DNA of 64,000 bases from the NCBI RefSeq assembly GCF_001898575.1, contig NZ_MKUD01000009.1, positions 186,001 through 250,000 on the forward strand, given 5' to 3'. Below the pieces are notes generated by a model. The model saw nothing but the letters and a program-made list of their open reading frames with translations. It made no database searches and was not told the DNA's origin. Below, in pieces: positions 4,371-62,025 of the stretch; positions within the stretch are counted from its first letter, which is position 1, and each line of letters opens with the position of its first letter. Both the position numbers and the translations under genes were made by a program. The DNA comes from Spirosoma sp. 48-14. Lineage in GTDB: Bacteria; Bacteroidota; Bacteroidia; Cytophagales; Spirosomataceae.

Positions 4371-4450
4371 AGCCGTCAGTTGATAGTCGTCAGTCTTTTA
4401 AATCACAGACTTATCTCCTATCGACTAACGGCTGGAGACTAACGACTAAC
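4371..4450. repeat. Imperfect palindrome of GACTAAC/AGTCGTC units in the secA leader
   Basis: The arm at 4371-4386 (AGCCGTCAGTTGATAG) pairs with 4418-4433 (CTATCGACTAACGGCT), and a second pairing joins AGTCGTCAGTCT with AGACTAACGACT at 4437-4448. The 7-base unit GACTAAC and its complement recur. It fills the gap up to four bases before the secA ATG, so the mRNA leader should fold. The same unit type is seen at 13549-13598 and around 26490-26635. Confidence 0.7.
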
Positions 4451-4453
4451 AAA

Positions 4454-7400
4454 ATGATTAACCTCATAGCGAAACTTTTCGGTACCAAATCCCAACGGGA
4501 CATTAAAGAACTGCTCCCTTACGTGGAAAAGGTAAATGCCGAATTTGCCCGGTTAAAAGATCTGTCCAATGATGAATTGCGGCAGGTTTCGGCATCTCTT
4601 AAAGCTCAGATTACCGACGAGTTAGCCGATATTGATAACCAGCTCTCCGAGCTTAAAGAACAGGCTGGTCATCCAGAAATCGACGTCAACGAAAAAGAAC
4701 AAATCTTCAATCGGATTGACAAACTCGAAGTTGAACGCAATACAGAACTGGAACGGGTTCTGCTCGACATTCTGCCCCGCGCTTTTGCGGTTGTGAAAGA
4801 AACGGCCCGGCGGTTCACCGAAAACGAACAACTTACCGTTACCGCCACCGATTTCGACCGTGAATTGGCCGCTCGGAAAAAAAGTGTAGTTATCGATGGT
4901 GAATTGGCGCACTGGGCCAATCGCTGGGATGCTGCCGGATCGCCCATCAAATGGGACATGGTTCATTATGATGTGCAAATTATTGGGGGCGTTGTTCTGC
5001 ACCAGGGTAAAATTGCTGAGATGGCTACGGGTGAAGGTAAAACCCTTGTGGCTACGTTCCCTGCTTTTTTGAATGGCCTGGCAGGCCAGGGCGTTCATAT
5101 TGTAACGGTCAACGATTACCTGGCCAAGCGTGACTCCGAATGGATGGGGCCTCTATTTGAATTTCATGGCCTACGCGTCGACTGTATTGATAAACACCAG
5201 CCGAACTCCGAGCAACGCAAGAAGGCGTACCTTGCTGATATTACATATGGTACGAACAATGAATTCGGCTTCGATTATCTGCGTGACAACATGGCTCGCG
5301 AAACCGGCGAACTGGTGCAACGGAAGCACCACTACGCTATGGTCGATGAAGTTGACTCCGTTCTGATCGATGATGCCCGAACACCATTGATCATCAGCGG
5401 CCCCGTTCCTCGTGGGGATGAGCAGGATTATATCGAACTAAAGCCTCGGGTAGCACGAGTTGTTGAAGCCCAACGGAAATTAGTATACGACTTCCTGAAT
5501 GATGCCAAACGGAAGATTGCCGCTGGTGATGAAAAAGAAGGGGGTTTGTCGCTGTTCCGCGCACACCGAGGCTTGCCCAAGCATAAGCCTCTGATCAAGT
5601 TTTTGAGTGAAACTGGGAATAAAGCGCTACTTCAGAAAACAGAAGCAATCTATCTGGCCGAAAATCAGAAGTTGATGCCGGAAGCTGATGCCCCCCTTTA
5701 TTTTACCATCGACGAGCGGCATAACAGCATTGATCTTACTGAAAAAGGGATTGACTACATCACGGGTTCGGGCGAAGATCCCAACTTCTTTATCCTTCCC
5801 GACCTATCAATTGATCTGAACACAATTGATAAAGATGGTGAATTCTCAGAGCAGGAAAAACTTCTTCATAAAGAAGCCGTCATTCGCGATTACTCCGTTA
5901 AAACCCAGCGCATTAATACCGTAAACCAGCTTCTGAAAGCATATTGTCTGTTCGAACGAGACACTGAATACGTCATTATGGACGGTAAGGTTAAAATCGT
6001 TGATGAACAGACAGGGCGGATCATGGAAGGCCGTCGATGGTCGGACGGTTTGCACCAGGCCGTTGAAGCCAAAGAGAATGTTAAGGTAGAAGACGCTACT
6101 CAAACCTACGCTACTGTTACGCTTCAAAACTACTTCCGGATGTATCACAAACGGGCTGGTATGACGGGTACGGCCGAAACGGAAGCGTCTGAATTCTGGC
6201 AGATCTATAAAATGGATGTGGTTGTGATTCCAACTAACCGCGCCATTAGTCGGAAAGACGAAGAAGATAAGGTGTATCGTTCGGTTCGGGAAAAATACAA
6301 TGCAGTTGTTGACGAAATTACCAGCCTGGTCGAAAAAGGTCGTCCGGTACTGGTGGGAACAACGTCGGTCGAAAACTCTGAATTACTAAGCCGCCTACTT
6401 ACGCTCCGCAAAATCCAACACCAGGTTCTGAACGCCAAGTACCACCAGCGCGAAGCCGAAATTGTTGCAACAGCAGGTTTGCCAGGTACGGTTACGATCG
6501 CTACTAACATGGCTGGTCGGGGTACTGATATCAAACTAACCCCCGAGTCGCGGTCTGCCGGTGGATTGGCTATTATTGGTACCGAACGCCATGAATCGCG
6601 TCGGGTCGACCGTCAGCTACGGGGTCGTTCTGGCCGTCAGGGCGATCCAGGTACCTCCCAGTTCTTTGTTTCGCTGGAAGATAGCCTGATGCGGTTGTTC
6701 GGCTCCGAACGGATTGCTAAAGTCATGGACCGCATGGGTCTGGAAGAAGGTGAAGTGATTCAGCACTCGATGATTACAAAGTCCATCGAACGAGCGCAGA
6801 AGAAAGTTGAAGAAAACAACTTCGGCATTCGGAAACGGCTGCTCGAATACGACGATGTGATGAACTATCAGCGGGAAGCTATTTACAAACGCCGTCGGAA
6901 CGCTCTGTTTGGCGACCGTTTGCCGCTGGATATTGCCAACACTATGTATGATGTAGTTGAGGAGGTAGTCAATAACTCCGAAGGCAATTATGAGGAGATT
7001 AAACTCCAATTATTGACTACGCTGGGCTTTTCGCCAGATTTAAGTAGTGAAGAGTTTAATCGTCTGAAGAAACCGGAGCTGACCCGGCGTTTATATGACG
7101 AGGCCGAAGCACATTATCAGGCCAAGAACCAGGCTATTGCCGAGAAGGCATTGCCCATTCTAACGCAAGTGCTAAACGAGCAGGGACATCAGATTAAGAA
7201 TATCGTTGTGCCATTCTCCGATGGAATCCATGAATTGACCGTTGTAGCCGATCTGCGTAAAGCCGTTGAATCAGGGGCTCGCGAAATCGTGACCGAAATG
7301 GAGAAAGCAGTCACGTTATCGATTATTGACCAGGAATGGAAAGAACACCTCCGCGAAATGGATGACCTTAAGCAATCGGTACAGAACGCCGTATTCGAAC

Positions 7401-7849
7401 AGAAAGACCCCTTGCTGGTCTATAAGTTTGAGTCTGTAGAGCTGTTCAAGCGATTCCTGAACAAGGTCAATTTTGATACCATCAGTTTCCTGACCAAAGC
7501 CGATATTCCAGCCCAGGAGCCAGAAGAAGTGCAGCAGGAAATCCGTCAGGCTCCGGCCCAGCGAAAGCCACAGCCGCAGCCTAAACTGCAAACAAATGCG
7601 GAGGACTTCACCGACGATCACCTGGCTACAGGCCCTGAGGAGTATGCTCGTCGGATGGCCGAAAATGATGCGATGGGGGCCGGGGCTCCACCTATGCCTG
7701 CCCAACGCCAGGCCCCACTACGGGTAGCTAAGCTTGACCGGAACGCTCGCGTCAATGTACAATATGCAGATGGGTCAGTAAAACGTGATGTCAAGTTCAA
7801 AACGGTTGAAAATGATGTGGTTAGTGGCAAAGCCATGCTCATCGACTAA
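4454..7849 (+). CDS. secA: Preprotein translocase ATPase SecA
   Basis: The motor ATPase of the Sec pathway, driving unfolded preproteins through SecYEG at the inner membrane. Walker A is GEGKT at 193-197 and the DEAD-type Walker B is DEVD at 298-301. The second nucleotide-binding fold with [10 protein letters not shown] and the [11 protein letters not shown] motif follow, then the helical scaffold/wing region. At 1131 residues it is longer than E. coli SecA (901) because of insertions typical of Bacteroidota. The tail is Pro/Gln-rich (about 1015-1075) and ends in a short conserved block rather than the Cys-rich zinc-binding SEC-C motif, so SecB-type zinc docking is not expected. It is monocistronic, with its own promoter and a strong terminator. 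Confidence 0.97.
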
Positions 7850-7861
7850 ACTAGTCTGAAC

Positions 7862-7918
7862 TCAGACAGTAAAAATGCCCGCCGAACAGATGGTTCAGCG
7901 GGCATTTTTACTGTCTGA
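7862..7918 (+). terminator. Terminator after secA
   Basis: A perfect 21-bp inverted repeat (arms 7862-7882 and 7898-7918) with a 15-base loop is followed by six T residues. Its position 13 bases after the secA stop fits an intrinsic terminator. Confidence 0.85.
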
Positions 7919-8007
7919 TTTTTTAAGTTATTCATCTCTTTCGGCACACTTTATGGATAGGCAGTTAACAGGCACTTTCCGGTAAACAGAATCGTTATTA
8001 GTACAGC

Positions 8008-9090
8008 ATGCGTTACATCTTTTTTGCCCTGCTTTTTGCTGGACTCTTGTCGTTTTCCCCACAGGCCGATCCAATCAGACTTCACGCTGAATCACTGCCG
8101 CTGGTCCCAAAAGAATTTTATATTGCCAAAGTAATTGACCAACGATCAGACCGGGGGCCGATTGCCCGTTTGGCGCTGAACCTGAATCAGCCGCCCTTGC
8201 CGGTCGATCTGGAAGGAGGTCTCGTAGGTAGCTTTCAATCCTTTATTAATCAAAGCCTTAAGCAAAACAAAGCCCTGCGCCCCATTGGTCTGAGCGTGCG
8301 TGAGTGTAAAGTCATCGAAACAGCTAGTGGCAGTCGGGTCAATGGTCAATTATCGTTCGATGTCGATTTTGAATTGCTCGGAAAGGACGATAACGGGGCA
8401 GAAACGCACACGCATCTGATGGACTACCGGGGGGGGACTAAATACATACGTCCCTTGGGCCAGACAGCCGTTATTGAGTCGTCAATTCGACAGACGCTGG
8501 TTGCTGCACTTCGCCGGTTCAACGAATACATGAATCGGGAGAGCAATCAGAATGAGAAATTGGCGAAAACGCTGCGGGTTAACTTCATTGATGATACGCG
8601 TATTACCAACGATGATACTGTCCTTTATAATCCTACGCGTAAGTTAACCTGGGCCGACTTTAAAGCCGAGCCCCGTAAGGGTAGCCACTATGCAGCCGAA
8701 GTCTTTACCAGCTTTTCGTATGAAGGCAAAAGTTCGGTCAAGGACGGGATCATTAGCCTGAATCTGGCCGCCAAAGCCTATATGCTGAAAACCTCATCGT
8801 GGGGCCGCGCCGATGCTCGTAATGCCTATTCGCTCAACCATGAACAACGCCATTTCGACATTACCAAAATCATTGTGGAGCGATTCAAACGCAAGCTGGT
8901 GGCCGATAGCCTGACGCTGGAAGATTACAATAGCATTGCCCAATACAAGTTTATCGAGTCGTTCAGGGAATTAAATAAGATGCAGACCCAGTACGACGAC
9001 GAAACCAACCATAGCATTAACCAGGCTGCCCAGGAGCGCTGGAACCAGAAGATTGATGCCGAATTGCGCAGTCTGGGTGTGATCAAATGA
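8008..9090 (+). CDS. Secreted DUF922-type putative zinc protease
   Basis: A 360-residue exported protein. A signal peptide occupies about residues 1-20. The C-terminal half carries the DUF922 pattern: LTWADFKA at about 214-221, then NHEQRHFDIT with an HExxH zinc-site motif at 278-282. DUF922 members are annotated as predicted secreted zinc-dependent proteases, but their activity is not established. The N-terminal 170 residues are a separate domain of unknown function. The stop overlaps the ATG of the downstream glycosyltransferase by four bases, so the pair is co-translated although no functional link is obvious. Confidence 0.72.
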   Translation: MRYIFFALLFAGLLSFSPQADPIRLHAESLPLVPKEFYIAKVIDQRSDRGPIARLALNLNQPPLPVDLEGGLVGSFQSFINQSLKQNKALRPIGLSVRECKVIETASGSRVNGQLSFDVDFELLGKDDNGAETHTHLMDYRGGTKYIRPLGQTAVIESSIRQTLVAALRRFNEYMNRESNQNEKLAKTLRVNFIDDTRITNDDTVLYNPTRKLTWADFKAEPRKGSHYAAEVFTSFSYEGKSSVKDGIISLNLAAKAYMLKTSSWGRADARNAYSLNHEQRHFDITKIIVERFKRKLVADSLTLEDYNSIAQYKFIESFRELNKMQTQYDDETNHSINQAAQERWNQKIDAELRSLGVIK

Positions 9091-10354: not shown

Positions 10355-11293
10355 ATGTATATACATGCAGTAAGCCATTACCTTCCAACGGAGGTAGTTG
10401 GCAATGAACACTTTACCCAGCTCAATGGCTTGTCCAGCGACTGGATTATTGAACGTACCGGAATTAAGGAGCGACGCAAAGCTGCTCCCGGTGAGAATAC
10501 CAATACCATGACCATCGAAGTCGTAAAACGGCTTCAGGAAAAAACCGACCTCTCGACCATCGATTTAATTGTAGGTGCTACTTATACACCATACGATACC
10601 ATCGTTTCACTCGCTCACGAAGCTCAGCATTATCTGGGCATTGCCGATATTCCGGTTATTTCGGTTTCCACAGCCTGTTCCTCGTTGCTCAATGCCATTG
10701 AAGTTGTTGAAGGCTACTTTGCGCTGAACAAAGCAACGCGTGCATTGGTCATTGTAGCAGAGCATAACACACTCTACTACAACGAGCAGGATACGATCTC
10801 GGGGCATTTATGGGGCGATGGTGCGGCTGCTTTATTAATTACTAAAGAGCGACAAAGCGAGGACGATTTCTCAATTAAAGCTTTATTGACAGGCGGAGCT
10901 GCCCATACGCCCAAAGCGACTACTGGTGTGATGATGCGACCTGCCGATGGCGGTGTTACGATGCCTCACGGACGCGATGTCTTTATCAATGCCTGTCAGT
11001 ATATGCCCAAAGCCAGTCTACAGGTGCTGGAGCGTTGCGGACTTACCCTCGCCGATGTCGATTATATACTGCCCCACCAGGCGAATCTGCGTATTTCCCG
11101 TAACGTGATGAATACGCTTGGCTTACCCGAAGAGAAATTAATTTCGAATATTCAGCATTATGGCAACACAGGTTGTGCTGGTTGTGCAATAGCTCTTTCC
11201 GAACAGTGGGATATGTTCAAAAAGGGCCAGCATATCGTCATCACCGTATTCGGCGGAGGTTACTCCTACGGTGCCATGCTGGTAGAAGTGTAA
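10355..11293 (+). CDS. 3-oxoacyl-ACP synthase III family protein
   Basis: A 312-residue thiolase-fold condensing enzyme of the FabH type, which joins an acyl-CoA to malonyl-ACP. All three catalytic residues are present: Cys108 in STACSS, His241 in LPHQAN and Asn271 in HYGNTG. The FabH signature TGIKER lies at 35-40. It is not beside other fatty-acid genes, so it may be a specialised KAS III rather than the housekeeping FabH. Its 146-base upstream gap has no clear -33/-7 pair. It is convergent with the DsbD-like gene across a 35-bp palindrome. Confidence 0.85.
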   Translation: MYIHAVSHYLPTEVVGNEHFTQLNGLSSDWIIERTGIKERRKAAPGENTNTMTIEVVKRLQEKTDLSTIDLIVGATYTPYDTIVSLAHEAQHYLGIADIPVISVSTACSSLLNAIEVVEGYFALNKATRALVIVAEHNTLYYNEQDTISGHLWGDGAAALLITKERQSEDDFSIKALLTGGAAHTPKATTGVMMRPADGGVTMPHGRDVFINACQYMPKASLQVLERCGLTLADVDYILPHQANLRISRNVMNTLGLPEEKLISNIQHYGNTGCAGCAIALSEQWDMFKKGQHIVITVFGGGYSYGAMLVEV

Positions 11294-11376
11294 TGTAACG
11301 TAGGCAGAAGCCCGCGAAGCTGTAGAGGTTACCTAGTTATCCTACAGCTTCGCGGGCTTCTGCCTACGTTACATTA
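11291..11376. repeat. 35-bp perfect palindrome between convergent genes (GTAACG family)
   Basis: The arms 11291-11325 and 11342-11376 are perfectly complementary over 35 bases with a 16-base centre. The left arm begins with the TAA stop of the KAS III gene and the right arm ends two bases before the stop of the opposite gene. It can end transcription in both directions. The core GTAACGTAGGCAGAAGCCCG is nearly shared with the palindrome at 49927-50000. Confidence 0.9.
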
Positions 11377-11378
11377 CA

Positions 11379-14552: not shown

Positions 14553-14587
14553 AAACTTCCCGAAAGATTGGGCCTTTCGGGAAGTTT
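14553..14587 (-). terminator. Terminator after the small lipoprotein gene
   Basis: A 14-bp perfect stem (14553-14566 with 14574-14587) with a 7-base loop, followed on the minus strand by TTTTGTTTT. It sits 28 bases beyond the stop of the gene ending at 14615. Confidence 0.75.
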
Positions 14588-16501: not shown

Positions 16502-16586
16502 GTGAATGATTGAATGATAGAATTAGTTAATACCTGCTTATGTGTTAATTAATTCTATCATTCAATCATTCAATCATTCGCAATTA
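16502..16586. repeat. Palindrome of AATGATTG octamer units between glyA and tatC
   Basis: Arms 16505-16525 and 16550-16570 are perfectly complementary over 21 bases. The arms consist of 8-base units (AATGATTG, AATGATAG and complements), and the right arm carries one extra copy. The repeat occupies the gap from three bases after the glyA stop to six bases before the tatC start. Confidence 0.85.
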
Positions 16587-16591: not shown

Positions 16592-17449
16592 ATGCCACTC
16601 GACCAACTGACTGACGAAGAGATTGATTCTGAAGGTAAAGAGATGTCCTTTCTGGACCATCTGGAAGAACTGCGCTGGCACATTATCCGCTCGGCCGCAG
16701 CCATTCTGGTATTTACGATTACGGCCTTCATTTTCATCGACGATATTTTTGAATATGTGCTGCTGGGCCCTGCCAAAACGGACTTCTGGACGTATCGACA
16801 GATGTGCAAACTGGCTGATATTACGGGCTATGCCGATTTGTGCGTTAAAAGTCTGACGTTTAAACTACAGGCGCTGGGCTTATCGGATCAGTTTACGATG
16901 TCACTCACCTCGTCGTTTTTTGTTGGGTTAAGCTTTACCTTTCCTTATGCCTTCTGGGAACTGTGGCGCTTTATAAAACCTGGTCTTCGCCCGGTTGAGA
17001 GACGCGCTGCGCGAGGAGCCGTTTTTTATGTATCGTTACTGTTCGCTCTTGGCGTACTGTTTGGCTATTTTATCGTATCTCCGCTGGCAATCAACTTCTT
17101 AGTCAACTATACGCTATCGAGTAAGATTGAGAACAACATCGACATTACGTCCTATATCTCGGTTATTGTGACGCTGGCGTTGGGTTGCGGACTCATCTTC
17201 CAGATGCCGATTATTGCCTTTGTGCTGTCGAAAGTTGGTGTTCTGACACCTGCTTTCATGCGCGAATACCGCAAGCATGCCTGGATTGTCATTCTGGTCG
17301 TAGCGGGGGTTATTACTCCCTCGCCCGATATTTACAGTCAGGTGCTGGTTGCCTTACCGCTTGCCCTTCTTTATGAGATAAGTATTGTGGTTTCGGGAAG
17401 AGTCCAGCGTATGCGCGAAGAAGACCGGAAGGAGTTAATGAATTCGTAA
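16592..17449 (+). CDS. tatC: Twin-arginine translocase subunit TatC
   Basis: The receptor subunit of the Tat system, which exports folded proteins carrying an RR signal. 285 residues with about six membrane helices. The N-terminal MSFLDHLEELRWHI block is the diagnostic TatC motif, and FxxGLxPVERR in the first cytoplasmic loop matches the signal-peptide binding region. No tatA is adjacent. A likely Tat substrate is encoded at 29514. A terminator follows at 17466. Confidence 0.95.
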   Translation: MPLDQLTDEEIDSEGKEMSFLDHLEELRWHIIRSAAAILVFTITAFIFIDDIFEYVLLGPAKTDFWTYRQMCKLADITGYADLCVKSLTFKLQALGLSDQFTMSLTSSFFVGLSFTFPYAFWELWRFIKPGLRPVERRAARGAVFYVSLLFALGVLFGYFIVSPLAINFLVNYTLSSKIENNIDITSYISVIVTLALGCGLIFQMPIIAFVLSKVGVLTPAFMREYRKHAWIVILVVAGVITPSPDIYSQVLVALPLALLYEISIVVSGRVQRMREEDRKELMNS

Positions 17450-22477: not shown

Positions 22478-22618
22478 GAACCGCTCCGGCGGCCCGGCGG
22501 GATTTAACTGATTTTAAGATTAATCTGATTTTGTTTTTCGCTTCTCTGAAGCACTGAGATCACAAAATCCTGCAAATCCATGAATCAGCTAAATCCCGCC
22601 GGGCCGCCGGAGCGGTTC
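22478..22618. repeat. 29-bp GC-rich palindrome with GGGATTTAACTGATT arms
   Basis: Arms 22478-22506 and 22590-22618 match perfectly over 29 bases, with a further partly paired segment (ACTGATTTT against TGAATCAGC). The right arm lies within the 3' end of the DUF4350 gene and encodes its last residues (EPLRRPGGI) and stop codon. The AATCAGCTAAATCCCG segment is shared with the palindrome at 54710-54818. Confidence 0.88.
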
Positions 22619-26648: not shown

Positions 26649-27344
26649 ATGGCTGTTGCGATTCGCACCTCCCAAAACGTCCTTCTGGAATACGAACCGG
26701 CCAGCATTGGCGAGCGAATTCTGGCAGCGCTGATGGATTATCTGGTGATATTTGGCTGGCTTATCCTGACCGTTTTTTTGCCCACTTCGCTAGGTTATCA
26801 GATCAATAGCTTTTACAGCCTTTTCATTGCACTACCCGCCGTTTTTTACGACCTCCTGAGTGAGTGGTTACTCAATGGCCGCAGCATCGGCAAGCTCGCC
26901 ATGCGTATTCGGGTGGTTATGCTCGACGGATCACCGCCAGGAATCGGGGCTTACCTGATTCGGTGGCTGTTCCGAATTATTGAGTCGGGGGCGTTTTTAG
27001 GAGGCATTGTTCCCGTTATCACAATAGCCATCAACGGAAAAGGCCAACGCCTTGGCGACATAGCTGCCGGAACCACCGTTGTGCGGCTGAAACCCGCGGT
27101 TACGCTCGACGACGTCGTTATTAAACCCTTTACAGACAACTATATCGTGCAGTTTCCCGACGTCCGGCTGCTTTCCGATCACGACATCGCCATTGTGCGA
27201 AATGTAGTCCGGCAGGGTGATGAACCTCTTTTCCAACGTACTGCCGACAAGGTTAAAGCCGTTACTGGAATCCGTAGTGATTTAGGAAACCGAGAATTTC
27301 TGCTTACCGTTATCAATGACTATCAGTTTATTACGACACAGTAA
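26649..27344 (+). CDS. RDD family membrane protein
   Basis: A 231-residue protein with an RDD domain in the first 140 residues: three hydrophobic segments, the GERILAALMDYLVI start, LSEWLLNGRSIGKLAMRIRV, and LGDIAAGTTVV. The C-terminal 90 residues are a soluble tail. RDD proteins are paired with SpoIIM and MoxR genes in many genomes, and this one is divergent from that operon here. The TAA stop is formed by the GTAACG end of a palindrome. Function is unproven. Confidence 0.88.
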   Translation: MAVAIRTSQNVLLEYEPASIGERILAALMDYLVIFGWLILTVFLPTSLGYQINSFYSLFIALPAVFYDLLSEWLLNGRSIGKLAMRIRVVMLDGSPPGIGAYLIRWLFRIIESGAFLGGIVPVITIAINGKGQRLGDIAAGTTVVRLKPAVTLDDVVIKPFTDNYIVQFPDVRLLSDHDIAIVRNVVRQGDEPLFQRTADKVKAVTGIRSDLGNREFLLTVINDYQFITTQ

Positions 27345-27396
27345 CGCGGCTGGAAAGCCGCAAACTATTTAATAAACGGCTTTCCAGCCGCGTTAC
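27341..27396. repeat. 20-bp perfect palindrome (GTAACG family) between RDD and M20 genes
   Basis: Arms 27341-27360 and 27377-27396 (GTAACGCGGCTGGAAAGCCG and complement) are perfect. The repeat runs from the RDD stop codon, which it contains, to two bases before the M20 start. It shares its GTAACG...CGTTAC ends with the palindromes at 11291 and 49927. Confidence 0.9.
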
Positions 27397-30162: not shown

Positions 30163-30250
30163 TAGGAGCGGGGAGTGAGGAGTGAGAATACTTCGCATGA
30201 TGAGATTGCGCCAGCTATGCTCACTCCTTACTCCTGACTCCTCACTCCTT
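30163..30250. repeat. Inverted repeat of GGAGTGA heptamers
   Basis: The left arm at 30163-30186 carries GGAGTGAGGAGTGAG and the right arm at about 30219-30250 carries four tandem ACTCCTN units. It lies between the subunit 3 gene and the GMC gene. A longer reading frame upstream of the GMC gene runs through it, but that N-terminus is repeat-derived and was not accepted. Confidence 0.8.
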
Positions 30251-42774: not shown

Positions 42775-42786
42775 CACTGATTAGGC

Positions 42787-42835
42787 TTCAATAAAAAAAG
42801 TCCTCGCTTTGGTAGCGAGGACTTTTTTTATTGAA
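42787..42835. terminator. Bidirectional terminator between M1 peptidase and desaturase
   Basis: A perfect 22-bp inverted repeat (42787-42808 with 42814-42835) with a 5-base loop and A/T tracts on both sides, downstream of both convergent genes. Confidence 0.88.
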
Positions 42836-42941
42836 GATAAGCCTGTTAAACCATTTGCCTGGAACCCATTTTTCAACTTATCTAAAATAGGCAAACAAGT
42901 TGGTTCATTGAACGCCTGCCCAGGTCAAACAAACACTAGGA

Positions 42942-49235: not shown

Positions 49236-49931
49236 ATGCGCTTGCAAACAATAACGCTCATTCTCTGCCTCTCATTGGCCGTTTGTCTGGCACACGCCCA
49301 GATCGGAAAAGTCCCGGCTGGCTTCACCCCTATTTTCAACGGGAAAGATCTGAAAGGATGGCATACCAGTCGGACATCGCATCAGGGCACAACGGGTAAT
49401 TTTTACGTCGAAAATGGGGTTATCACCCTCAAACAATATCCATATGGCCAGGGTGGTATCTTGCTGACCGACAAAAAGTATGGCAACTATGAACTGTATC
49501 TGGAAGCCAAAATTGATTCGTTCTGCAATGGTGGTATCTTCCTTCGGTCAACGGAAAGTGGCATGGCCTATCAGGTTGAACTGGCGACTCCCGGCGGACT
49601 GGGCGATCTGTTGGGCGAACGAATGAGCGTCAGCAAAGGGGCTCAGGCTACCAACATTAGTAGAGTCTGGAAAGCAGGTGGCTGGAACTCGTTTCGTATT
49701 CGAATGGAGGGTGCCATTCCCCGCATTCGATTGTGGGTCAACGACGAGCTTATGTGGGATGTGACCGAACCCAAAAATGATTTTATTGCCGACGCTACAA
49801 CAGGCATGATTGGCCTGCAATCGCACTGGTCTGCGGTGTATTCGGCAGCCGCCGAAGCGTTTAACATGGCGGGTTCCTGGAAACCCGGTGCTGCTCACCG
49901 CTTTCGCAACATCGCAATTAAAGAACTGTAA
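49236..49931 (+). CDS. DUF1080 (3-keto-disaccharide hydrolase) family protein
   Basis: A 231-residue secreted protein with signal peptide (about 1-21, ending AHAQ) and a lectin-like DUF1080 fold: GFTPIFNGKDLKGWH, GGILLTDKKYGNYELYLEAKI, GIFLRST and an ending HRFRNIAIKEL. Family members hydrolyse 3-keto-glycosides in the periplasm. The frame extends upstream to 49176 within the preceding gene, but the ATG at 49236 starts a proper signal peptide. The stop codon lies inside a palindrome. Confidence 0.85.
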   Translation: MRLQTITLILCLSLAVCLAHAQIGKVPAGFTPIFNGKDLKGWHTSRTSHQGTTGNFYVENGVITLKQYPYGQGGILLTDKKYGNYELYLEAKIDSFCNGGIFLRSTESGMAYQVELATPGGLGDLLGERMSVSKGAQATNISRVWKAGGWNSFRIRMEGAIPRIRLWVNDELMWDVTEPKNDFIADATTGMIGLQSHWSAVYSAAAEAFNMAGSWKPGAAHRFRNIAIKEL

Positions 49932-50000
49932 CTGTAACGTGGGCGGAAGCCCGCGAGTTAAAAGAATTACTCGCGGGCTTCCGCCCACGTTACAGTTACA
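49927..50000. repeat. 32-bp perfect palindrome with the stop codons of two convergent genes
   Basis: Arms 49927-49958 and 49969-50000 are perfect over 32 bases with a 10-base loop. The TAA of the DUF1080 gene (49929-49931) and the TAA of the PiT gene (49996-49998 on the other strand) are in the two arms. The core GTAACGTGGGCGGAAGCCCG differs from that at 11295 by two transitions. Confidence 0.92.
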
Positions 50001-51417
50001 GCAACCAGCGGAAGAAAATATATAATGAAAAAGATAGCAGAACCGACACAGGCAGCGTAAGTACCCAGGCCAGCGCAATATTCCGGATGGTATCGGCCTG
50101 TAAGTTTTTAACCCCTTTGCTGGCCACCATGCTCCCGGCAATCCCCGACGACAGCACATGGGTAGTACTAACCGGGAGTTTCAGCCAGGAAGCAAATCCG
50201 ATCATACTGGCGGCCACTAATTCGGCCGAAGCCCCCTGCGCATAGGTCAGGTGTTGTTTACCGATTTTCTCCCCTACCGTCACCACAATCCGTCGCCAGC
50301 CGATCATCGTTCCTAAACCCAGCGACAAGGCAATCATCAGAATAACCCAGAAAGGCGCATAGTCTGTAAACCGACGCAATCCACTTTCCTCGCCCAAACT
50401 CTTGTTCAGTACCGACATCTGAGCCGCGCTGACGTTAGCTCCTTCGTCGGCGGTAATCTTTTTCATGTTGCTATTAATCAGCAATAAGTCTTTCCGTACG
50501 TCCAGCCGCTTTTCATTCGGAATCTTATTATCGACCAACGGTCCATTGATGAGCTTGCTCAGCTCAGCCAATTCCGACCGGGTTTCAACCAGCCGTTCAC
50601 GGTTGGCAGGCGAAAGCTGGCTGGAATCCAGGGTAGCAATTGTCTGCTCAATGCCGGTGATATTGGTTTGCATCAGCCGTGGATCAAGCTCCGATTTTAT
50701 GGCAAAATGATAAGGTACAATGCCAATCAGAATCAGCATAATCAAGCCTACGCCTTTCTGACCATCGTTGCTACCGTGAAAGAAACTCACCAGCGAACAC
50801 GTCAGAATCAGGACACCTCGAATCCAGGAAGGTGGTTCGGTATTTTTCTTTGGCTCTTTAAAAAGCTGATCTTTAACATCCTGCGACACAGATCGGCGCA
50901 AAACGAACATCAGCACAATAGCCAAACTGAAACCGAGTAATGGAGAAAGCAGCAGCGCTTCGCCCGTCTCGATCGCTTTATCCCAGTTGACAGCAGCACC
51001 GGTTTTATTTTCAGGGAGCGTAGAAAACGCTAAGCCAACACCCAGAATTGAGCCAATCAGCGTATGCGAGCTGGAACTGGGAATACCAAAATACCAGGTC
51101 CCAAGGTTCCAGATAATAGCACTCAGCAGCAGCGCCAGTACCATAGCCACACTATGATACACATTCTGATCGACCAGCAACTCGACGGGCAACAGGTTAA
51201 CAATACCCATCGCTACACCAATACCGCCCAGCAACACACCCGTGAAATTGCAAATCCCGGACCACACGACCGCAACGGTCGGTTTTAGGGAATTGGTGTA
51301 AATAACCGTAGCAACGGCGTTGGCAGTATCGTGGAAACCATTGACAAATTCGAAGGCACAAGCAGCAAATAAGCTGATAAAAAGGAGGATAAAAACATCC
51401 GTTTCTAATCCAAACAT
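49996..51417 (-). CDS. pit: PiT-family inorganic phosphate transporter
   Basis: A 473-residue inner-membrane transporter with about ten helices. The PiT signature GFHDTANAVAT lies near residue 27 and a second repeat with SLVSFFHGSNDGQKGVG in the middle. A long cytoplasmic loop with coiled-coil character (about 235-340) separates the halves. It probably carries Pi with H+ or Na+. The frame extends to 51477, but that ATG lies in a TACTTTTG -7 box, so the ATG at 51417 is used. Confidence 0.9.
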   Translation of the reverse strand: MFGLETDVFILLFISLFAACAFEFVNGFHDTANAVATVIYTNSLKPTVAVVWSGICNFTGVLLGGIGVAMGIVNLLPVELLVDQNVYHSVAMVLALLLSAIIWNLGTWYFGIPSSSSHTLIGSILGVGLAFSTLPENKTGAAVNWDKAIETGEALLLSPLLGFSLAIVLMFVLRRSVSQDVKDQLFKEPKKNTEPPSWIRGVLILTCSLVSFFHGSNDGQKGVGLIMLILIGIVPYHFAIKSELDPRLMQTNITGIEQTIATLDSSQLSPANRERLVETRSELAELSKLINGPLVDNKIPNEKRLDVRKDLLLINSNMKKITADEGANVSAAQMSVLNKSLGEESGLRRFTDYAPFWVILMIALSLGLGTMIGWRRIVVTVGEKIGKQHLTYAQGASAELVAASMIGFASWLKLPVSTTHVLSSGIAGSMVASKGVKNLQADTIRNIALAWVLTLPVSVLLSFSLYIFFRWLL

Positions 51418-52682: not shown

Positions 52683-52766
52683 AAAGAGTGAAAGAGCGAA
52701 AGAGTGAAAGAGTGAAAGAGCGGAGCAGAATAACCACTCTTTCACTCTTTCGCTCTTTCACTCTTT
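52683..52766. repeat. Inverted repeat of AAAGAGYG octamers between CvpA and rlmN
   Basis: The left arm (52683-52720) has about five tandem AAAGAGTG/AAAGAGCG units, and the right arm (52737-52766) has the complementary units. It extends into the 3' end of the CvpA gene, whose last residues KSERAKE and stop TGA are read from it. Three other copies of this family lie in the next 10 kb. Confidence 0.9.
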
Positions 52767-53290
52767 ATGTTTTCAGCTCGCCATTTTTTCCCGGCTTCCA
52801 GGCCTTTGGGTACCCAGACAGCGGCTTTGTACATCACTTTGGGGGCAATGGGCCGTACATAGGGATATAGAAAGGCGTTTTCGGTATAACGCGGGGGTAT
52901 GACGACGTTCATATAGCTGAACAACCAAAGGATAACACTAATTCCAAACACCCAGGTAAAAAGCCCTATGGTTGCTCCGGCTACGCTGTCGAATGTGCCG
53001 AGTAAGGTGTATTTCAGTGAGCGACGAAGCGCGAGGCCCAACTGATTGACCATCAATACCGTCGGAAAGAATATAACCGAGAAGCCCAGCAAGGGCAGTA
53101 CTTTTCGGGCGAGTTCGCGGCTGATGTATGGACTCAGCAGGTCAATACCGAATGCCAGAAATTTAAGCCCAACAATCATAGCTACCACAAAGGCTATGAT
53201 GGCCACAATTTCGACCAGCAACCCTTTGCGGTACCCATTAAAAGCCCCCCAGGCAAGGGGGATAAACATGAATAAGTCGAGCGAGTTCAA
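52742..53290 (-). CDS. CvpA family membrane protein
   Basis: A CvpA/colicin V production-type membrane protein of about 182 residues with four helices. From a TTG at 53290 it reads as M/L-NSLDLFMFIPLAWG then NGYRKGLLVEIVAII, matching family members that begin M-N-x-(L/I)-D. The open frame has an ATG at 53347, but the extra residues (SLFRHSLFRSL) are translated from an octamer repeat, so the TTG start is favoured; the first internal ATG is seven codons later. The C-terminal KSERAKE is also repeat-derived. Function: membrane maintenance, exact role unknown. Confidence 0.75.
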   Translation of the reverse strand: MNSLDLFMFIPLAWGAFNGYRKGLLVEIVAIIAFVVAMIVGLKFLAFGIDLLSPYISRELARKVLPLLGFSVIFFPTVLMVNQLGLALRRSLKYTLLGTFDSVAGATIGLFTWVFGISVILWLFSYMNVVIPPRYTENAFLYPYVRPIAPKVMYKAAVWVPKGLEAGKKWRAENIKSERAKE

Positions 53291-53372
53291 AGAGCGAAAG
53301 AGTGAATGGCGAAAGAGCGAAAAAGTCTGCGCGATTAATTCGCTCATTCACTCTCTCGCTCTTTCGCTCTTT
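53288..53372. repeat. Inverted repeat of AAAGAGYG octamers between CvpA and yqeY
   Basis: Left arm 53288-53325 and right arm about 53341-53372 consist of AAAGAGCG/AAAGAGTG-type units and complements. The CvpA start codon and the TAA of the yqeY-like gene (53371-53373) lie at its ends, so the whole gap is repeat. Confidence 0.88.
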
Positions 53373-53823: not shown

Positions 53824-53972
53824 TAAAGAGCGAAAGAGTGAATGAGTGAAAGAGCGAACATGCTGAACTGAACCTTCACTTGATTGGCAAAGTTACAAAT
53901 TTGTAATTCGTATTTCGCTCCGCTTCGGCAGACCGATTTCGCTCTTTCGCTCATTCACTCTTTCGCTCTTTA
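53824..53972. repeat. 35-bp inverted repeat of AAAGAGYG octamers between divergent yqeY and pdxJ
   Basis: Arms 53824-53858 and 53938-53972 match over 35 bases with one mismatch. The region between the arms contains a minus-strand TAACTTTG (53888-53895), a -7 box for the yqeY-like gene. The repeat ends abut the starts of both genes (53820 and 53979). Confidence 0.9.
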
Positions 53973-53978: not shown

Positions 53979-54722
53979 ATGACTCGCTTATCCGTCAATA
54001 TCAACAAAATAGCTACGCTGCGGAATGCCCGTGGAGGCAATAACCCAGATCTGGTTCAGGTTGCTCTCGATTGCGAACGCTTTGGGGGCCAGGGCATTAC
54101 CGTTCATCCTCGGCCCGACGAACGACATATACGATATCAGGATGTGCTGGATCTGAAAGAGGTGGTGACGACTGAATTTAACATCGAAGGGAATCCCGAC
54201 GGCCGTTTTGTCGAGTTAGTCAAACGTGTAAAACCCCATCAGGTAACGCTTGTACCCGATGCGCCGGATGCGATCACATCAAACGCAGGCTGGGACACCA
54301 TCCGCTATGCCGACCACCTTCGCCAATTAATCGCCATTTTTAAAGAAGATAACATTCGTGTCTCCATTTTTGTGGATGCTGACGAGCGCATGGTCGAAGG
54401 GGCCAAAGCCGTTGGTACAGACCGAATTGAATTGTATACTGAACCGTATGCGGCCCACTACGCCGAAAATCGGGAAGCAGCCATTGCTCCTTTTATTAAA
54501 GCTGCTCAACGAGCCAATGAACTGGGACTGGGCCTCAATGCGGGGCACGATTTAAGTCTGGAAAACCTCCGTTATTTCAACGAACACATTCCCGGATTGC
54601 TGGAAGTTTCGATCGGTCATGCGCTGATCTGCGACGCTCTGTATTATGGCCTTGAAAATACGATCCAGATGTATCGTCGCTGTCTTTCTTCTGATCAGAT
54701 CGCCGAAACGACCGGGATTTAG
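53979..54722 (+). CDS. pdxJ: Pyridoxine 5'-phosphate synthase
   Basis: Catalyses the last step of the DXP-dependent vitamin B6 pathway, joining 3-amino-2-oxopropyl phosphate and DXP. A TIM barrel of 247 residues. [18 protein letters not shown] at the N-terminus, [12 protein letters not shown], and [12 protein letters not shown] near the end are diagnostic. The stop TAG lies inside a palindrome arm, so the last residues TTGI are partly repeat-encoded. Followed by mnmH. Confidence 0.96.
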
Positions 54723-54818
54723 CTGATTTTGGATTTACAGGATTCAGGATTTCATTATCAGTTTCCTAATTTTTCAAACAGAATCAGCTTTAATCCAAAA
54801 ATCAGCTAAATCCCGGTC
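54710..54818. repeat. 26-bp palindrome spanning the whole pdxJ-mnmH gap
   Basis: Arms 54710-54735 (GACCGGGATTTAGCTGATTT and on) and 54791-54818 match except for one extra A. The pdxJ TAG lies in the left arm and the mnmH ATG begins the base after the right arm. The CAGCTAAATCCCG core is shared with 22478-22618. Confidence 0.92.
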
Positions 54819-56482: not shown

Positions 56483-56513
56483 AGCAAGAGGAGATGAGTT
56501 CTTGTAAATATAC

Positions 56514-57215: not shown

Positions 57216-57223
57216 TAACTTTG
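57216..57223 (+). promoter_or_regulatory. -7 element upstream of prfA
   Basis: TAACTTTG is a perfect TAnnTTTG about 64 bases before the prfA start at 57287. No -33 TTG at the right spacing. It lies inside an extended reading frame, which argues against the longer 399-residue version of prfA. Confidence 0.5.
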
Positions 57224-57286
57224 TTTTTTATCCATTTGTCTTATTCGTTGCCATTCTTAATTAGATGGCAAGTAAAGGTATATATT

Positions 57287-58360
57287 ATGCTCGAACAGCT
57301 GGAAGCCATTCGCGAACGCTTCGATGAAGTATCTCAGCAAATTGTACAGCCCGAAGTAGTTTCGGACCAGAAACGCTTCATGAAGCTGAGTAAAGAGTAC
57401 AAAGATTTAGAAAAAATCGTCGTGCAGTACAAAGCGTACACCCAACTGCTCGAAGAAATTGAGAACGCCAAACAGATCATCTCCACGGAAAAGGACGAAG
57501 ATTTCCGCGAATTGGCGAAAGCTGAACTGGACGAACTACTACCCCGCCGGGAAACGATGGAGGAAACACTCAAGGAGATGTTGATGCCGAAAGATCCCAA
57601 CGATAGCAAAAATGTCATTCTTGAAATTCGGGGAGGCACTGGTGGCGATGAAGCCGCGATCTTTGCGGGTGATCTGTTCCGAATGTACCAGCGCTTCTGC
57701 GAAAAAATGGGCTGGCGTATGTCGTTGGTCGATTTTACAGAAGGCACGTCGGGTGGTTATAAAGAAATTGTGACCGAAATCGAGGGCGAAGATGTGTACG
57801 GTAAGCTAAAATTCGAGTCGGGTGTTCACCGGGTTCAGCGCGTACCAGCCACAGAAACACAGGGCCGCATTCATACGTCAGCGGCTAGTGTAGCCGTACT
57901 GCCCGAAGCCGAAGAGGTCGATGTGGAACTGAACATGAACGACATCCGTAAAGATACTTTCTGTTCGTCGGGAGCGGGTGGACAGTCGGTAAACACGACC
58001 TATTCAGCCGTTCGACTTACGCACATTCCCACAGGGCTGGTTGTCCAATGCCAGGATGAGCGCTCCCAGTTAAAGAACTTCGACAAAGCCCTGACGGTGT
58101 TGCGGTCACGGCTTTACGAGATCGAGTTGCAAAAACACAACGACGCCATTGCCTCGCAACGGAAAACGATGGTAGGTAGTGGCGACCGCTCTGATAAGAT
58201 TCGTACCTACAACTACCCTCAGAGCCGTGTAACGGACCACCGCATTGGTATGACGGTTTATAACCTTCCATCGGTCATGGATGGTGATATTGGCGATTTC
58301 ATCGAGCAGCTCCGCATCGCCGAAAACGCCGAACGACTCAAAGAAGGCGCTGCGGCATAA
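57287..58360 (+). CDS. prfA: Peptide chain release factor 1
   Basis: Release factor that ends translation at UAA and UAG. The GGQ motif (SGAGGQSVN) contacts the peptidyl-transferase centre, and the PAT anticodon-like tripeptide (RVPATE) marks RF1 rather than RF2. 357 residues is the normal size. The frame is open back to 57161, but the ATG at 57287 gives the standard MLEQLEAIRERFDEV start and the upstream part contains a promoter box. A strong palindrome follows the stop. Confidence 0.96.
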   Translation: MLEQLEAIRERFDEVSQQIVQPEVVSDQKRFMKLSKEYKDLEKIVVQYKAYTQLLEEIENAKQIISTEKDEDFRELAKAELDELLPRRETMEETLKEMLMPKDPNDSKNVILEIRGGTGGDEAAIFAGDLFRMYQRFCEKMGWRMSLVDFTEGTSGGYKEIVTEIEGEDVYGKLKFESGVHRVQRVPATETQGRIHTSAASVAVLPEAEEVDVELNMNDIRKDTFCSSGAGGQSVNTTYSAVRLTHIPTGLVVQCQDERSQLKNFDKALTVLRSRLYEIELQKHNDAIASQRKTMVGSGDRSDKIRTYNYPQSRVTDHRIGMTVYNLPSVMDGDIGDFIEQLRIAENAERLKEGAAA

Positions 58361-58369
58361 GCTACCGAA

Positions 58370-58460
58370 TAAAATGAGAATCCCCCCGATGGGTTCATTT
58401 CTTTATAGAAAACCATAATATCTATAAAGAGATAAACCCATCGGGGGGATTCTCATTTTA
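58370..58460. repeat. 26-bp perfect palindrome between convergent prfA and gtrA genes
   Basis: Arms 58370-58395 and 58435-58460 (core GAATCCCCCCGATGGGTT) match perfectly, with further pairing of CTTTATAG (58401-58408) with CTATAAAG (58422-58429) inside. It is likely a bidirectional terminator but is longer than needed. Confidence 0.9.
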
Positions 58461-58479
58461 TCGAACGCTGCGCTATTAG

Positions 58480-58968
58480 TTACAGATTCAATAAGCTTTT
58501 CAGCCGTTCATAAAAACCTGTGTTCCGAAACGTAAACTGCTTGTGCAACACATAATTGCTAATAAAACTCAACCCCATACCAATAATCTGAGCTACTAGT
58601 TTATTCACATTTACTTCTTTTACCGAAAACGGAATCAGTACGGTTAGCGGCTCAAAATTATTGACCGAAAAATCATATAGAAAAGAGGCAACATATACTG
58701 TAATCAGGCAGGAGATAATCGAAACAAGTGTAAACTTAATGGCCTCCCGATTGGTCTGGGCCGAATTCCGGGCATTGAACGCAAACAATTTGGTCAGTAG
58801 AAAACCCACGAAAAAGGCGACAACATACCCAATCAACAAAGCCTCCCGGTAACTAATCTGAAACCACTCCTGCAATAAACTACCGGCAATCAACTGTAAC
58901 GAAGCACCAATAGCGGCAACAATAAAATAAGCCAGTACATCCCGGCGGTTAAAAAGATCATTTGACAT
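58480..58968 (-). CDS. GtrA family membrane protein
   Basis: A 162-residue membrane protein with four helices of the GtrA type, thought to help flip lipid-linked sugars. DVLAYFIVAAIGASLQLIAGSLL at the start, VAFFVGFLLTKLFAFNARN and QIIGMGLSFISNYVLHKQFTF are characteristic. The frame is open to 59088, but this would cross the sdh terminator; the ATG at 58968 gives the normal family N-terminus. Linked glycosyltransferases are absent here. Confidence 0.85.
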   Translation of the reverse strand: MSNDLFNRRDVLAYFIVAAIGASLQLIAGSLLQEWFQISYREALLIGYVVAFFVGFLLTKLFAFNARNSAQTNREAIKFTLVSIISCLITVYVASFLYDFSVNNFEPLTVLIPFSVKEVNVNKLVAQIIGMGLSFISNYVLHKQFTFRNTGFYERLKSLLNL

Positions 58969-59053
58969 GTATTCTTTGAACAAACAAGTGACAAAACAAA
59001 GGCTTTTTAAGTAGGCCTCATTGTTCCGTTCACTTTTACGAAAATGACAACTT

Positions 59054-59095
59054 AAAAAAAATCCGGCCCTTCCCCATCGAGAAAGCACCGGATTT
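59054..59095 (-). terminator. Terminator after the sdh operon
   Basis: The stem AAATCCGG (59059-59066) / CCGGATTT (59088-59095) is followed on the minus strand by a run of T residues. It lies 20 bases beyond the sdhB stop. Confidence 0.8.
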
Positions 59096-59114
59096 ATCGA
59101 GATCGATAATCAAA

Positions 59115-59873
59115 TTAACCCTGAACGTTATCAGAGGTCAGTTTAGCCCCTAGATACTCGCGGTTCAGCCGGGCAATATGGTCAAGCGAAATAGACTTCG
59201 GACACTCCACTGAGCAAGCCCCCGTAAACGAACAGGCTCCAAACCCTTCGGCATCCATTTGAGCAACCATCCGCTCGGCCCGTTCTTTATGTTCGGCCTT
59301 ACCTTGTGGCAAAATAGCCAGTTGCGATACTTTCGCTGATACAAACAGCATAGCTGACGCATTTTTACAAGCCGCTACGCAAGCGCCACAACCGATACAG
59401 GCAGCCGCATCCATCGCTTCATCGGCAATGCTACGCGGAATCAGGATTTCGTTGGCGTCAGGCGCTGAACCCGTATTGACGGAAACATATCCGCCAGCCT
59501 GAATGATTCGGTCGAAAGCCAGTCGATCTACCATCAGGTCTTTAATAACGGGGAAAGCCCGCGCCCGCCAGGGCTCTACCACAATGGTATCGCCATCATT
59601 GAACGAACGCATGTGCAACTGGCAGGTAGTGGCTCCTGTTTGTGGGCCGTGGGGCCGTCCATTGATGTACATCGAGCACATACCACAGATTCCTTCCCGA
59701 CAGTCGTGATCGAACACAACAGGCTCTTCACCTTTGCGAGTCAGCGAGTCGTTCAGTACGTCGAACATCTCCAGGAACGACATATCTTCCGATACGTTAT
59801 CCAGTTGATATTCGACCAGTTTACCGGGTGTATTACTATTTTTTTGTCTCCAGACTTTGAGTGTAATTTTCAT
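59115..59873 (-). CDS. sdhB: Succinate dehydrogenase iron-sulfur subunit
   Basis: Transfers electrons from the flavoprotein to the membrane quinone site. [2Fe-2S] ligands Cys58, Cys63, Cys66 and Cys84; [4Fe-4S]/[3Fe-4S] ligands in [11 protein letters not shown] (159-169) and Cys214, Cys220, Cys224 region. 252 residues. Last gene of the sdhCAB operon in Bacteroidota order. Confidence 0.96.
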
Positions 59874-59953
59874 TGTCGATGGGTTTTCGGCTTATGGCAT
59901 TCTGTTTACGATGAACATCAGCCATCGTAAACAGAATACTATAAACCCAGCAT

Positions 59954-61891
59954 TTATTTATAACTACGCTGTGTCAGTTTTACGTTTTCAAATACCAGTG
60001 GTTCCTTATTCAGAATTTCAGGCTTACCTTCACCCTGATATTCCCAGGCAGCCACGTAGGCATAGTTTTCGTCGTCGCGAAGGGCTTCACCATCGGGGGT
60101 TTGGTATTCCTCGCGGAAGTGCCCGCCACACGATTCATTCCGGTTCAACGCATCATCGACCATCAGTTCGCCCAGTTCGATAAAGTCGGCAACGCGACCA
60201 GCCTGTTCGAGCGCCTGATTCATTTCATCGGCATCACCCAGCACTTTGGCATTTGTCCAGAACTCTTTCCGTAGCGCCTGAATTTTTTCTTTAGCAATTT
60301 TCAACCCTTCAGCCGTACGCGCCATACCGCAGTATTCCCACATGATATGGCCAAGTTCCTTATGCAAATCGTCGACTGGGCGACTACCTTTGAGCGACAG
60401 GAAGTGGTTAATCTGGTCCTGAATTTTCTTTTCAGCCTCTTTGAAAGCCGGAGCGTCGACAGGGATTTTATCACCTGGGCCAATTGTAGCCAGATAATCG
60501 CCGATGGTATACGGAATAACGAAATAGCCGTCGGCCAGCCCCTGCATCAGCGCCGAAGCACCTAGCCGGTTAGCGCCGTGGTCGGAGAAGTTGGCTTCAC
60601 CTAACGCATACAGACCGGGGATGGTCGTCATCAGGTTATAATCGACCCACAAGCCGCCCATGGTGTAGTGAACAGCCGGATAAATCATCATCGGTGTTTC
60701 GTAAGGGTTCTCACCGGTGATTTTCTCATACATTTCGAAGAGGTTGCCATACTTGGCCTCGATGGTTTTATGGCCATCGCGCTTGATCGCATCGGCAAAA
60801 TCCAGATACACGGCCAACCCTGTCTTCGATACGCCACGGCCTTCATCGCACATATTTTTCGCGTTCCGAGAAGCCACGTCACGGGGTACGAGGTTACCGA
60901 ACGATGGGTATCGACGCTCCAGGAAGTAGTCGCGCTTATCCTCGGGCAGGTCTGTTGGTTTCAGCTGGCCTTTCCGAATCTTTTCAGCGTCTTCGACCGT
61001 TTTGGGAACCCAAACACGCCCGTCGTTCCGAAGTGATTCGGACATCAGCGTGAGCTTGGACTGGTAGTGGCCCGATACAGGAATACAGGTCGGGTGAATT
61101 TGCGTAAAACAGGGGTTGCCAAACAGAGCGCCTTTTTTGTGTGCACGCCAGGCAGCTGTTACGTTAGACCCCATCGCATTAGTCGACAGGTAGAACACGT
61201 TACCGTATCCACCCGTACAAAGCAGAACAGCATGTCCTGCGTGCGATTCAATTTTGCCGGTTACCAGGTTGCGTACCACAATACCCCGCGCTTTGCCTCC
61301 TTCCACAACGAGGTCGAGCATTTCTGTACGGGTATAAAGTTTTACTTTCCCGTTAGCAACCTGACGACTCAGCGCCGAATAGGCGCCTAACAGTAGTTGC
61401 TGCCCCGTCTGACCGCGTGCGTAGAAGGTTCGGGATACCTGAGCGCCCCCAAATGAACGGTTTGCCAGCACCCCGCCGTACTCGCGGGCAAACGGTACAC
61501 CCTGAGCCACACATTGGTCAATGATATTGACACTTACTTCGGCCAGTCGGTGAACGTTTCCTTCACGAGCGCGGTAATCTCCCCCTTTGATGGTATCGTA
61601 GAACAACCGGAAAACACTGTCGCCGTCGTTTTGGTAATTTTTAGCAGCGTTAATCCCTCCCTGTGCTGCAATCGAGTGCGCCCGACGTGGGCTGTCCTGG
61701 AAGCAGAACGCTTTTACATTATACCCTAACTCAGCTAGCGAAGCGGCAGCTGATGCTCCCGCCAAACCTGTACCAACTACAATGATATCGTATTTCCGCT
61801 TGTTAGCCGGGTTAACCAGTTTCAGCGAAAACTTATGCCGTGCCCATTTCTCGGCTAAAGGGCCTTCGGGGATTTTAGATTCCAGTTTCAT
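59954..61891 (-). CDS. sdhA: Succinate dehydrogenase flavoprotein subunit
   Basis: Oxidises succinate to fumarate in the TCA cycle, or the reverse. The N-terminal FAD fold has [27 protein letters not shown] carries the histidine that binds FAD covalently; substrate residues are in the MGGLWVDY and [13 protein letters not shown] region. 645 residues, longer than E. coli SdhA (588), as in the Bacteroidota/B-type enzyme. It lies between sdhC and sdhB, separated from sdhC by an octamer repeat. Confidence 0.97.
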
Positions 61892-61893
61892 GC

Positions 61894-62025
61894 TTTAAAG
61901 AGCGAAAGACTGAAAGAGCGAAAGAGCGAAATCGGACCGCCGAAGCAGAGTAATCCGCAATTAAAGAAGTGAATTTCTGACGCTGGTCATTCGTCATTCA
62001 CTCTTTCGCTCTTTCACTCTTTAAA
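61894..62025. repeat. Inverted repeat of AAAGAGYG octamers inside the sdh operon
   Basis: Left arm 61894-61930 and right arm 61995-62025 are complementary arrays of AAAGAGCG/AAAGACTG/AAAGAGTG units. The sdhC stop TAA (62021-62023) lies in the right arm and the sdhA start is three bases from the left arm. It would form a hairpin in the sdhCAB mRNA. Confidence 0.9.

Follow-up and report, generated by a model that had tools for sequence, protein, structure and literature searches.

Dispersed intergenic hairpin families in Spirosoma with arms probably matched by template switching

The 64,000-nt stretch of the Spirosoma sp. 48-14 genome analyzed here (the window; its genome is labeled G000) is rich in long palindromes between genes. 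They belong to dispersed, non-coding hairpin families, located mostly just 3′ of stop codons, whose arms are probably kept identical by template switching during replication. About half of the palindromes can be placed in sequence families; their arms change jointly between species, their loops are inverted at some sites, and a 16-bp block occurs in mirrored or one-armed form within their stems. A DNA polymerase that meets the hairpin would take the other arm as template and then return, so that a change in one arm, be it a substitution, an indel, or an inserted block, would be erased or doubled. The location at gene 3′ ends would mainly be a matter of tolerance by selection, since hairpins there spare promoters and 5′ leaders. 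The mechanism itself is already known: template switching between inverted-repeat arms homogenizes the arms and inverts the spacer, according to the available portion of PMC8604942, and the part of PMC8794818 that was accessible proposes that it maintains RNA hairpins.

An ungapped inverted-repeat finder (match +1, mismatch −2; cutoffs of at least 14 or at least 16) returned 15 repeats scoring at least 14 in the window, far above the chance baseline of 20 dinucleotide shuffles, which gave none (shuffle maximum 13). A preliminary description of this DNA had listed twelve gaps as strongly filled by palindromes; 11 of these score at least 14, and the twelfth, at 30163-30250, scores 13. Five cases that it called weak fall within the shuffle range (4371 and 13549, score 11; 26490, score 9; 51518, score 12; 45989, no repeat of at least 9). 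Three ordinary-looking hairpins, two with T-runs, were absent from its list (7862-7918, 14553-14587, and 42786-42836). The 14 repeats of at least 16 lie in same-strand (9), convergent (4), and divergent (1) gaps. A wider sample of 464 kb from the same genome holds 65 such repeats, of which 3 were called coding and 62 lie in gaps, with genes called here and in all gap analyses by a custom script. The median share of a gap taken up by its repeat is 74%, and in 37 of the 62 gaps this share reaches 60% or more.

At the cutoff of 16, Spirosoma DNA (1.9 Mb) has 15.5 repeats per 100 kb, compared with 5.4 in 1.3 Mb from other loci (mostly Bacteroidota, judged by title) and 1.0 in 200 kb of Escherichia coli. 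Loci of Fibrivirga and Larkinella are also rich, with 5 and 7 repeats of at least 14 in 20.7 kb. The sequences had initially been described as many and unrelated, which is wrong in part: 11 of the window's 14 repeats of at least 16 belong to recurring families (Table 1, where F1 includes forms F1a and F1b), and dispersal is supported as well, since many arms belong to families. Using labels defined by custom regular expressions, we assigned 138 of 297 repeats in the wider Spirosoma DNA; the remaining 159, labeled "other," include at least one more dispersed family (GTCATNCCGACG..). Apart from the 16-mer AAAGAGYGAAAGAGYG treated next, the recurrent arms are the GAATGATT octamers, GGAGYGAG, GGGATTTA..TGATTT, GTAACGCGGG..CCCGC, CCCCGATGGGG, CACAGAG, and AATGAATAATG. 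The 16-mer AAAGAGYGAAAGAGYG is present in 326 copies in the window's genome, with no copies of the reversed control, and its F1 hairpin form was found in 28 of the 36 genomes that make up our within-genus sample (0 to 125 matches each, nested ones counted). In a phylum-wide sample of 296 genomes, a similar F1 pattern was found in none of the 294 non-Spirosoma genomes, and the two matching genomes are both Spirosoma. The arm TTGTCATTCCGACG.. occurs in the same 296 genomes in two Spirosoma and in nine genomes of one genus in another family. Two side observations concern these sequences. Spirosoma has a 25-base hairpin arm, TTGTCATTCCGACGAAGGAGGAATC, in common with a genus from a different family of the phylum (seen in G018, G253, and others), and the loops of F1 and F2 hairpins have words in common, such as GGCTGACGCAT and CCATCCGGCAG, in either orientation.

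Placement relative to genes is strongly biased. Across four sets of Spirosoma DNA, with gaps of at least 40 nt considered, a repeat of at least 16 is present in 99 of 202 gaps between convergent genes, 174 of 786 between same-strand genes, and 19 of 273 between divergent genes; the "others" set, which also entered the mismatch counts below, includes about 31 kb of overlapping stretches from seven genomes, which leads to double counting of a few repeats. In same-strand gaps with more than 40 nt to spare, 64 of 73 repeats are nearer to the upstream stop. In the genome of the window, repeats lie at medians of 3 nt from the stop and 20 nt from the following start, and the median loop is 16 nt. The octamer families depart from this pattern in avoiding convergent gaps: copies of F1a and F1b (n = 75) are found in same-strand (64), divergent (8), and convergent (2) gaps, with one unassigned.

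Such placement raises the alternative that the palindromes are transcription terminators or stabilizers of mRNA 3′ ends, with selection for RNA pairing changing both arms together. The strong preference for convergent gaps and the location a few bases after the stop match what the accessible part of PMC1590033 reports for bacterial stem-loops. The preliminary description had argued against a 3′-end role from the occurrence of palindromes in every gene orientation; that argument is weak, given the strong avoidance of divergent gaps and the tight placement of same-strand cases next to the stop codon. The evidence nonetheless makes this explanation of the arms unlikely. A U-tract is uncommon: of 75 tails from the window's genome, only 10 contain TTTT and 32 contain TTT. 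In addition, 11 of 41 same-strand hairpins come within 10 nt of the next start, which leaves scant space for a promoter. The inverted loops and paired 16-bp blocks described below also speak against it. Rho is present, which has no bearing either way on the terminator question. Some hairpins may additionally block or protect RNA 3′ ends, a role that we expect to be secondary for those lacking a U-tract.

Stem mismatches bear on whether the arms are matched at the RNA or the DNA level. On the sense strand of same-strand gaps, 4743 pairs contained 72 G-U, 68 A-C, and 71 transversion mismatches, and within F1a in this context, T-G and C-A mismatches were equal (8 each). U-tract terminators from nearly, not exactly, the same stretches (79 hairpins, all gene contexts, scored +1/−1) gave G-U 59, A-C 11, and transversion 9 (p 2e-6). 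For this control, the T-run was trimmed, since it could itself bias the counts. U-tract hairpins of other loci (92 hairpins; G-U 50, A-C 8, transversion 34) and of E. coli (14 hairpins; 5, 0, and 0) likewise favored G-U. In the three genomes checked, the G-U shares expected from composition were 0.50 and 0.56 for observed G-U to A-C counts of 37:33 and 36:7, respectively; base composition is therefore not the cause of the difference. The palindromes thus show no preference for G-U over A-C, though that preference is strong in ordinary terminators.

Comparison of orthologous junctions showed how the arms evolve. Of the 65 sites from the 464-kb sample, 42 were found in G001, where 27 still score at least 16, 7 score 9-15, and 8 hold no repeat; in G015, 41 were found (18, 11, and 12, respectively). 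The same junction in a relative often carries a hairpin with both arms altered, or none at all, rather than one unchanged ordinary terminator. Among hairpins whose arms were at least 70% identical and whose stem scored at least 14 in the relative, G000 and G001 differed by 37 compensated pairs, compared with 4.2 expected if the arms changed independently (30 homologous hairpins, 771 pairs), and G001 and G015 by 46, compared with 7.7 (33 hairpins, 824 pairs). Compensation therefore ran at 6-9 times the independent expectation, and 20 of the 37 and 21 of the 46 were transversion-type changes that lack a G-U intermediate. At site 38, a 7-nt indel is present in both arms. The C/T positions of F1a copies behave like barcodes: the two arms of a copy agree at 112 of 138 positions, fully so in 26 of 46 copies, and agreement between copies is 0.51, the chance level.

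Private barcodes also bear on a second alternative, in which the palindromes are mobile non-autonomous hairpins resembling repetitive extragenic palindromic (REP) elements or miniature inverted-repeat transposable elements, moved by a transposase, and orthologous differences are new insertions and losses. Dispersed families, the patchy copy number of F1 among Spirosoma genomes, presence or absence between sister species, and the 25-mer arm common to a genus of another family all agree with mobility. That each F1a copy has its own C/T pattern, common to its two arms, does not. Inspection by eye of 14 presence/absence alignments between sister species revealed no clear instance of a precise empty site accompanied by a target duplication, and a search restricted to Y1 transposases (Y1_Tnp) gave 6 matches in the genome. 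Mobility would account for spread and not for joint arm change within an old hairpin; as the sole explanation, we give it little credence, and it may hold in addition to arm copying.

Loops provide a further signature of template switching. Orthologous loops were inverted in 3 of 24, 2 of 15, and 4 of 23 cases, compared with chance expectations of 0.48, 0.14, and 0.27; at site 26, the 32-bp arms are the same and the loop is inverted. Phase-variable inversion switches are known in Bacteroidota, and site-specific inversion of this kind would flip loops as observed at some sites. Such inversion would not make the arms change in step, and the short spacers and the differences in arms between families also argue against such switches, which we regard as extremely improbable here. 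As a separate observation, two copies of one F4 hairpin lie about 700 bp apart (218241 and 218979 of the joined stretch G000:C1:100001-500000) with loops that are mutually reverse complementary.

The 16-bp block offers a marker for arm copying. At 22478-22618, the block lies in mirror position in both arms and is lacking in G001 and G015, and the junction is otherwise nearly the same as in G001, including the 69-nt loop. The pair is probably derived, having arisen in one or more steps. The exact 15-mer core is found in 29 of the 36 Spirosoma genomes; of 150 genomes from the family, 34 (in 11 of 36 genera) contain the 16-mer. Twenty pairs were chosen, among the matches listed, for close and opposite-oriented copies; they occupied mirrored stem positions in 20 of 20, and 17 of the 20 were still palindromes (score at least 18) once the block was removed. 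Hosting arms were GTCAT-type (10, one with a short flanking stem match only), octamers (3), CACAGAG (1), GGGATT (1), and three others, with two pairs having almost nothing beyond the block. Among 20 similarly hand-picked single copies, removal of the 16 bp raised the stem score from 12 to 18, 14 to 22, and 15 to 19 in L282, L290, and L291, which carry the block in one arm only, taking the best of 15 length and offset trials. Three more were marginal (L277, L283, and L285; gain of 1-2), three have a mismatched partner block (L279, L280, and L289), and the other 11 showed no clear gain. Mirrored double insertions in stem after stem are implausible, and entry into one arm followed by copying is the simpler account. 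Two side observations concern the block. It occurs in both arms or one arm of unrelated Spirosoma palindromes (L252-L291) and in other genera of the family, and some copies lie within about 80 bases of contig ends (G017:C10:44-59, G017:C11:44-59, G346:C28:1-16, and G346:C35:53-68), as if the block also borders longer repeats.

Arm symmetry might instead be maintained by selection on the DNA, for example through a nucleoid protein that binds cruciforms. Symmetric arms with no RNA-strand signature suit this explanation; arm sequence, arm length, and loop vary widely between families, and it would still need two matching 16-bp insertions or a copying step. We therefore hold it to be very unlikely. 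Template switching, raised in the preliminary description as a possible maker of palindromes at gene borders, is well supported as the keeper of arm match by the joint changes, loop inversions, blocks, and lack of G-U preference.

Several points weigh against copying between arms. All evidence is comparative, and no mutation was observed directly; the comparisons were made between species and not between strains, and because the species have orthologous sites in common, the tests are not entirely independent of one another. Changed pairs of other kinds, almost all of them one-sided, are more numerous than the compensated ones (64 versus 37 and 145 versus 46), so arms do drift apart. Most orientable loops are not inverted (16, 6, and 5 direct loops in the same comparisons, the rest ambiguous), several inverted calls come from weak matches, and conversion is possible between sites 26 and 27, neighboring copies of one family. 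Where genes converge or diverge and the choice of strand is arbitrary, G-U mismatches outnumber A-C by 12 to 2 (F1a, 10 to 0), from few independent sites. Clear placement in one arm of a stem was seen in just 3 of 20 single blocks; one-armed blocks could be decayed two-armed ones, and a pair might arrive as a single piece through recombination between palindromes. Strong selection for a symmetric DNA structure, such as a protein-bound cruciform, could also yield joint changes lacking a G-U preference. Finally, entirely different palindromes occupy one junction in 7 of 33, 7 of 22, and 16 of 36 kept hairpins, and arm copying alone does not explain these swaps. The idea that junctions retain a palindrome while swapping its sequence was weakened: G000 sites with no similar hairpin hold an unrelated one in 7 of 15 cases (G001) and 7 of 26 (G015), a rough match to the general occupancy of same-strand and convergent gaps (19-50%).

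Known systems share some of these features. Quasipalindrome mutation by template switching, in the portions of PMC8604942 and PMC8794818 that were available, likewise involves joint arm changes, loop inversion, and insertions in half of a stem; the cases described there concern RNA genes and yeast coding genes and are mostly few-base events, whereas the Spirosoma arms are 20-45 bp, intergenic, spread throughout one genus, and have a 16-bp block in each of the two arms. Stem-loops between bacterial genes likewise favor convergent over divergent gaps and lie near stops (PMC1590033, with families in PMC2267715, as far as their accessible text extends), but the Spirosoma stems are much longer and near-perfect, with few U-tracts and no G-U signature. 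REP elements and their RAYT proteins (PMC3733652, PMC12306157) also involve repeated extragenic palindromes, some near stops. The F1 arms differ in that every copy has its own, composed of short words in repetition, and a single genome contains several families. Intrinsic terminators share the location, and two window hairpins (7862 and 42786) have the classic shape, including the U-tract; the long palindromes mostly lack both the U-run and the G-U preference. In the literature covered (subscription literature and preprints being outside its scope), no account of these Spirosoma palindromes was found.

Table 1. Palindromes and hairpins of the window, with the paired block.
Positions	Feature	Context	Details
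7862..7918	Hairpin then TTTTTT, after secA	+ strand	Score 23; next bases TTTTTTAA; ordinary terminator shape
11289..11378	Palindrome, F4 (GTAACG..GGAAGCCCGCG)	Convergent gap	37-bp stem, score 37; arms altered jointly in G001; lost in G015
16503..16572	Palindrome, F1b octamers (GAATGATT)n	Between SHMT and tatC	Score 25; junction in G001 holds an (AAAGAGYG)n hairpin
22478..22618	Palindrome, F3 (GGGATTTAnnTGATT)	Same-strand gap	36-bp arms, score 33
22482..22497	16-bp block CGCTCCGGCGGCCCGG	Left arm of 22478..22618	Exact 16-mer; not in G001, G015
22599..22614	16-bp block, mirror copy	Right arm of 22478..22618	Exact 16-mer; not in G001, G015
27341..27396	Palindrome, F4	Same-strand gap	Score 20; similar in G001
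30172..30234	Palindrome, F2 (GGAGYGAG)	Same-strand gap	Score 13; −44.4 kcal/mol with 15-nt flanks
42786..42836	A-tract/T-tract hairpin, arm CTTCAATAAAAAAAGTCCTCGCT	Convergent gap	Score 23; ordinary bidirectional terminator shape
49926..50001	Palindrome, F4	Convergent gap	Score 33; two compensated pairs versus G001; unrelated 24-bp stem in G015
52683..52766	Palindrome, F1a (AAAGAGYG)n	rlmN/cvpA same-strand gap	Score 32; junction in G015 holds a (GAATGATT)n hairpin
53289..53364	Palindrome, F1a	cvpA/yqeY same-strand gap	Score 17
53824..53972	Palindrome, F1a, 79-nt loop	Divergent yqeY/pdxJ gap	Score 32; arms the same in G001; score 15 in G015
54710..54818	Palindrome, F3	After pdxJ	Score 21
58369..58461	Palindrome, F5 (CCCCGATGGGG)	Convergent gap	Score 35; seven compensated pairs versus G001
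59892..59944	Shorter palindrome, no family label	Same-strand gap	Score 16; absent from the preliminary list
61905..62022	Palindrome, F1a	Same-strand gap	Score 20; (GAATGATT)n type in G001

At Rfam gathering thresholds, no family matched in the window. The longest cvpA open reading frame (52742-53347) extends into a palindrome (53270-53347), and translation probably begins near 53269. A disrupted tatC-like stretch containing stops lies at G000:C2:156352-156748, in addition to the intact tatC at 16592-17449 of the window. Loss of SbcCD was considered as a cause of palindrome tolerance and rejected, there being no simple link with the presence of sbcD: a match above the cutoff was found in 26 of the 36 Spirosoma genomes, including that of the window, and G001 has no match in a complete chromosome yet is equally palindrome-rich. 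In many cases the gene is about 1 kb or less from the end of a contig (G000:C39:391, G015:C50:838, G027:C20:326, G033:C9:192, and others).

These palindromes bear on an old question, namely whether compensatory changes in hairpins arise by two mutations with a G-U step or by one copying event. Extrapolated from the sampled density, the genome would contain about a thousand such stems. Stems lacking a G-U signature stand beside ordinary terminators that have it, and together with the 16-bp marker, seen in one arm or in both, this offers a single environmental genus in which arm copying can be tested directly. The palindromes also serve as a warning that covariation alone is no proof of functional RNA structure. 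For Spirosoma itself, we tentatively suggest that arm writing may be continuing genome-wide, with any sequence that enters one arm, the recurrent 16-bp block included, copied to the mirror position, and with palindromes persisting over long times despite complete turnover of their sequence. The block itself may be a very small mobile module that spreads through palindrome arms.

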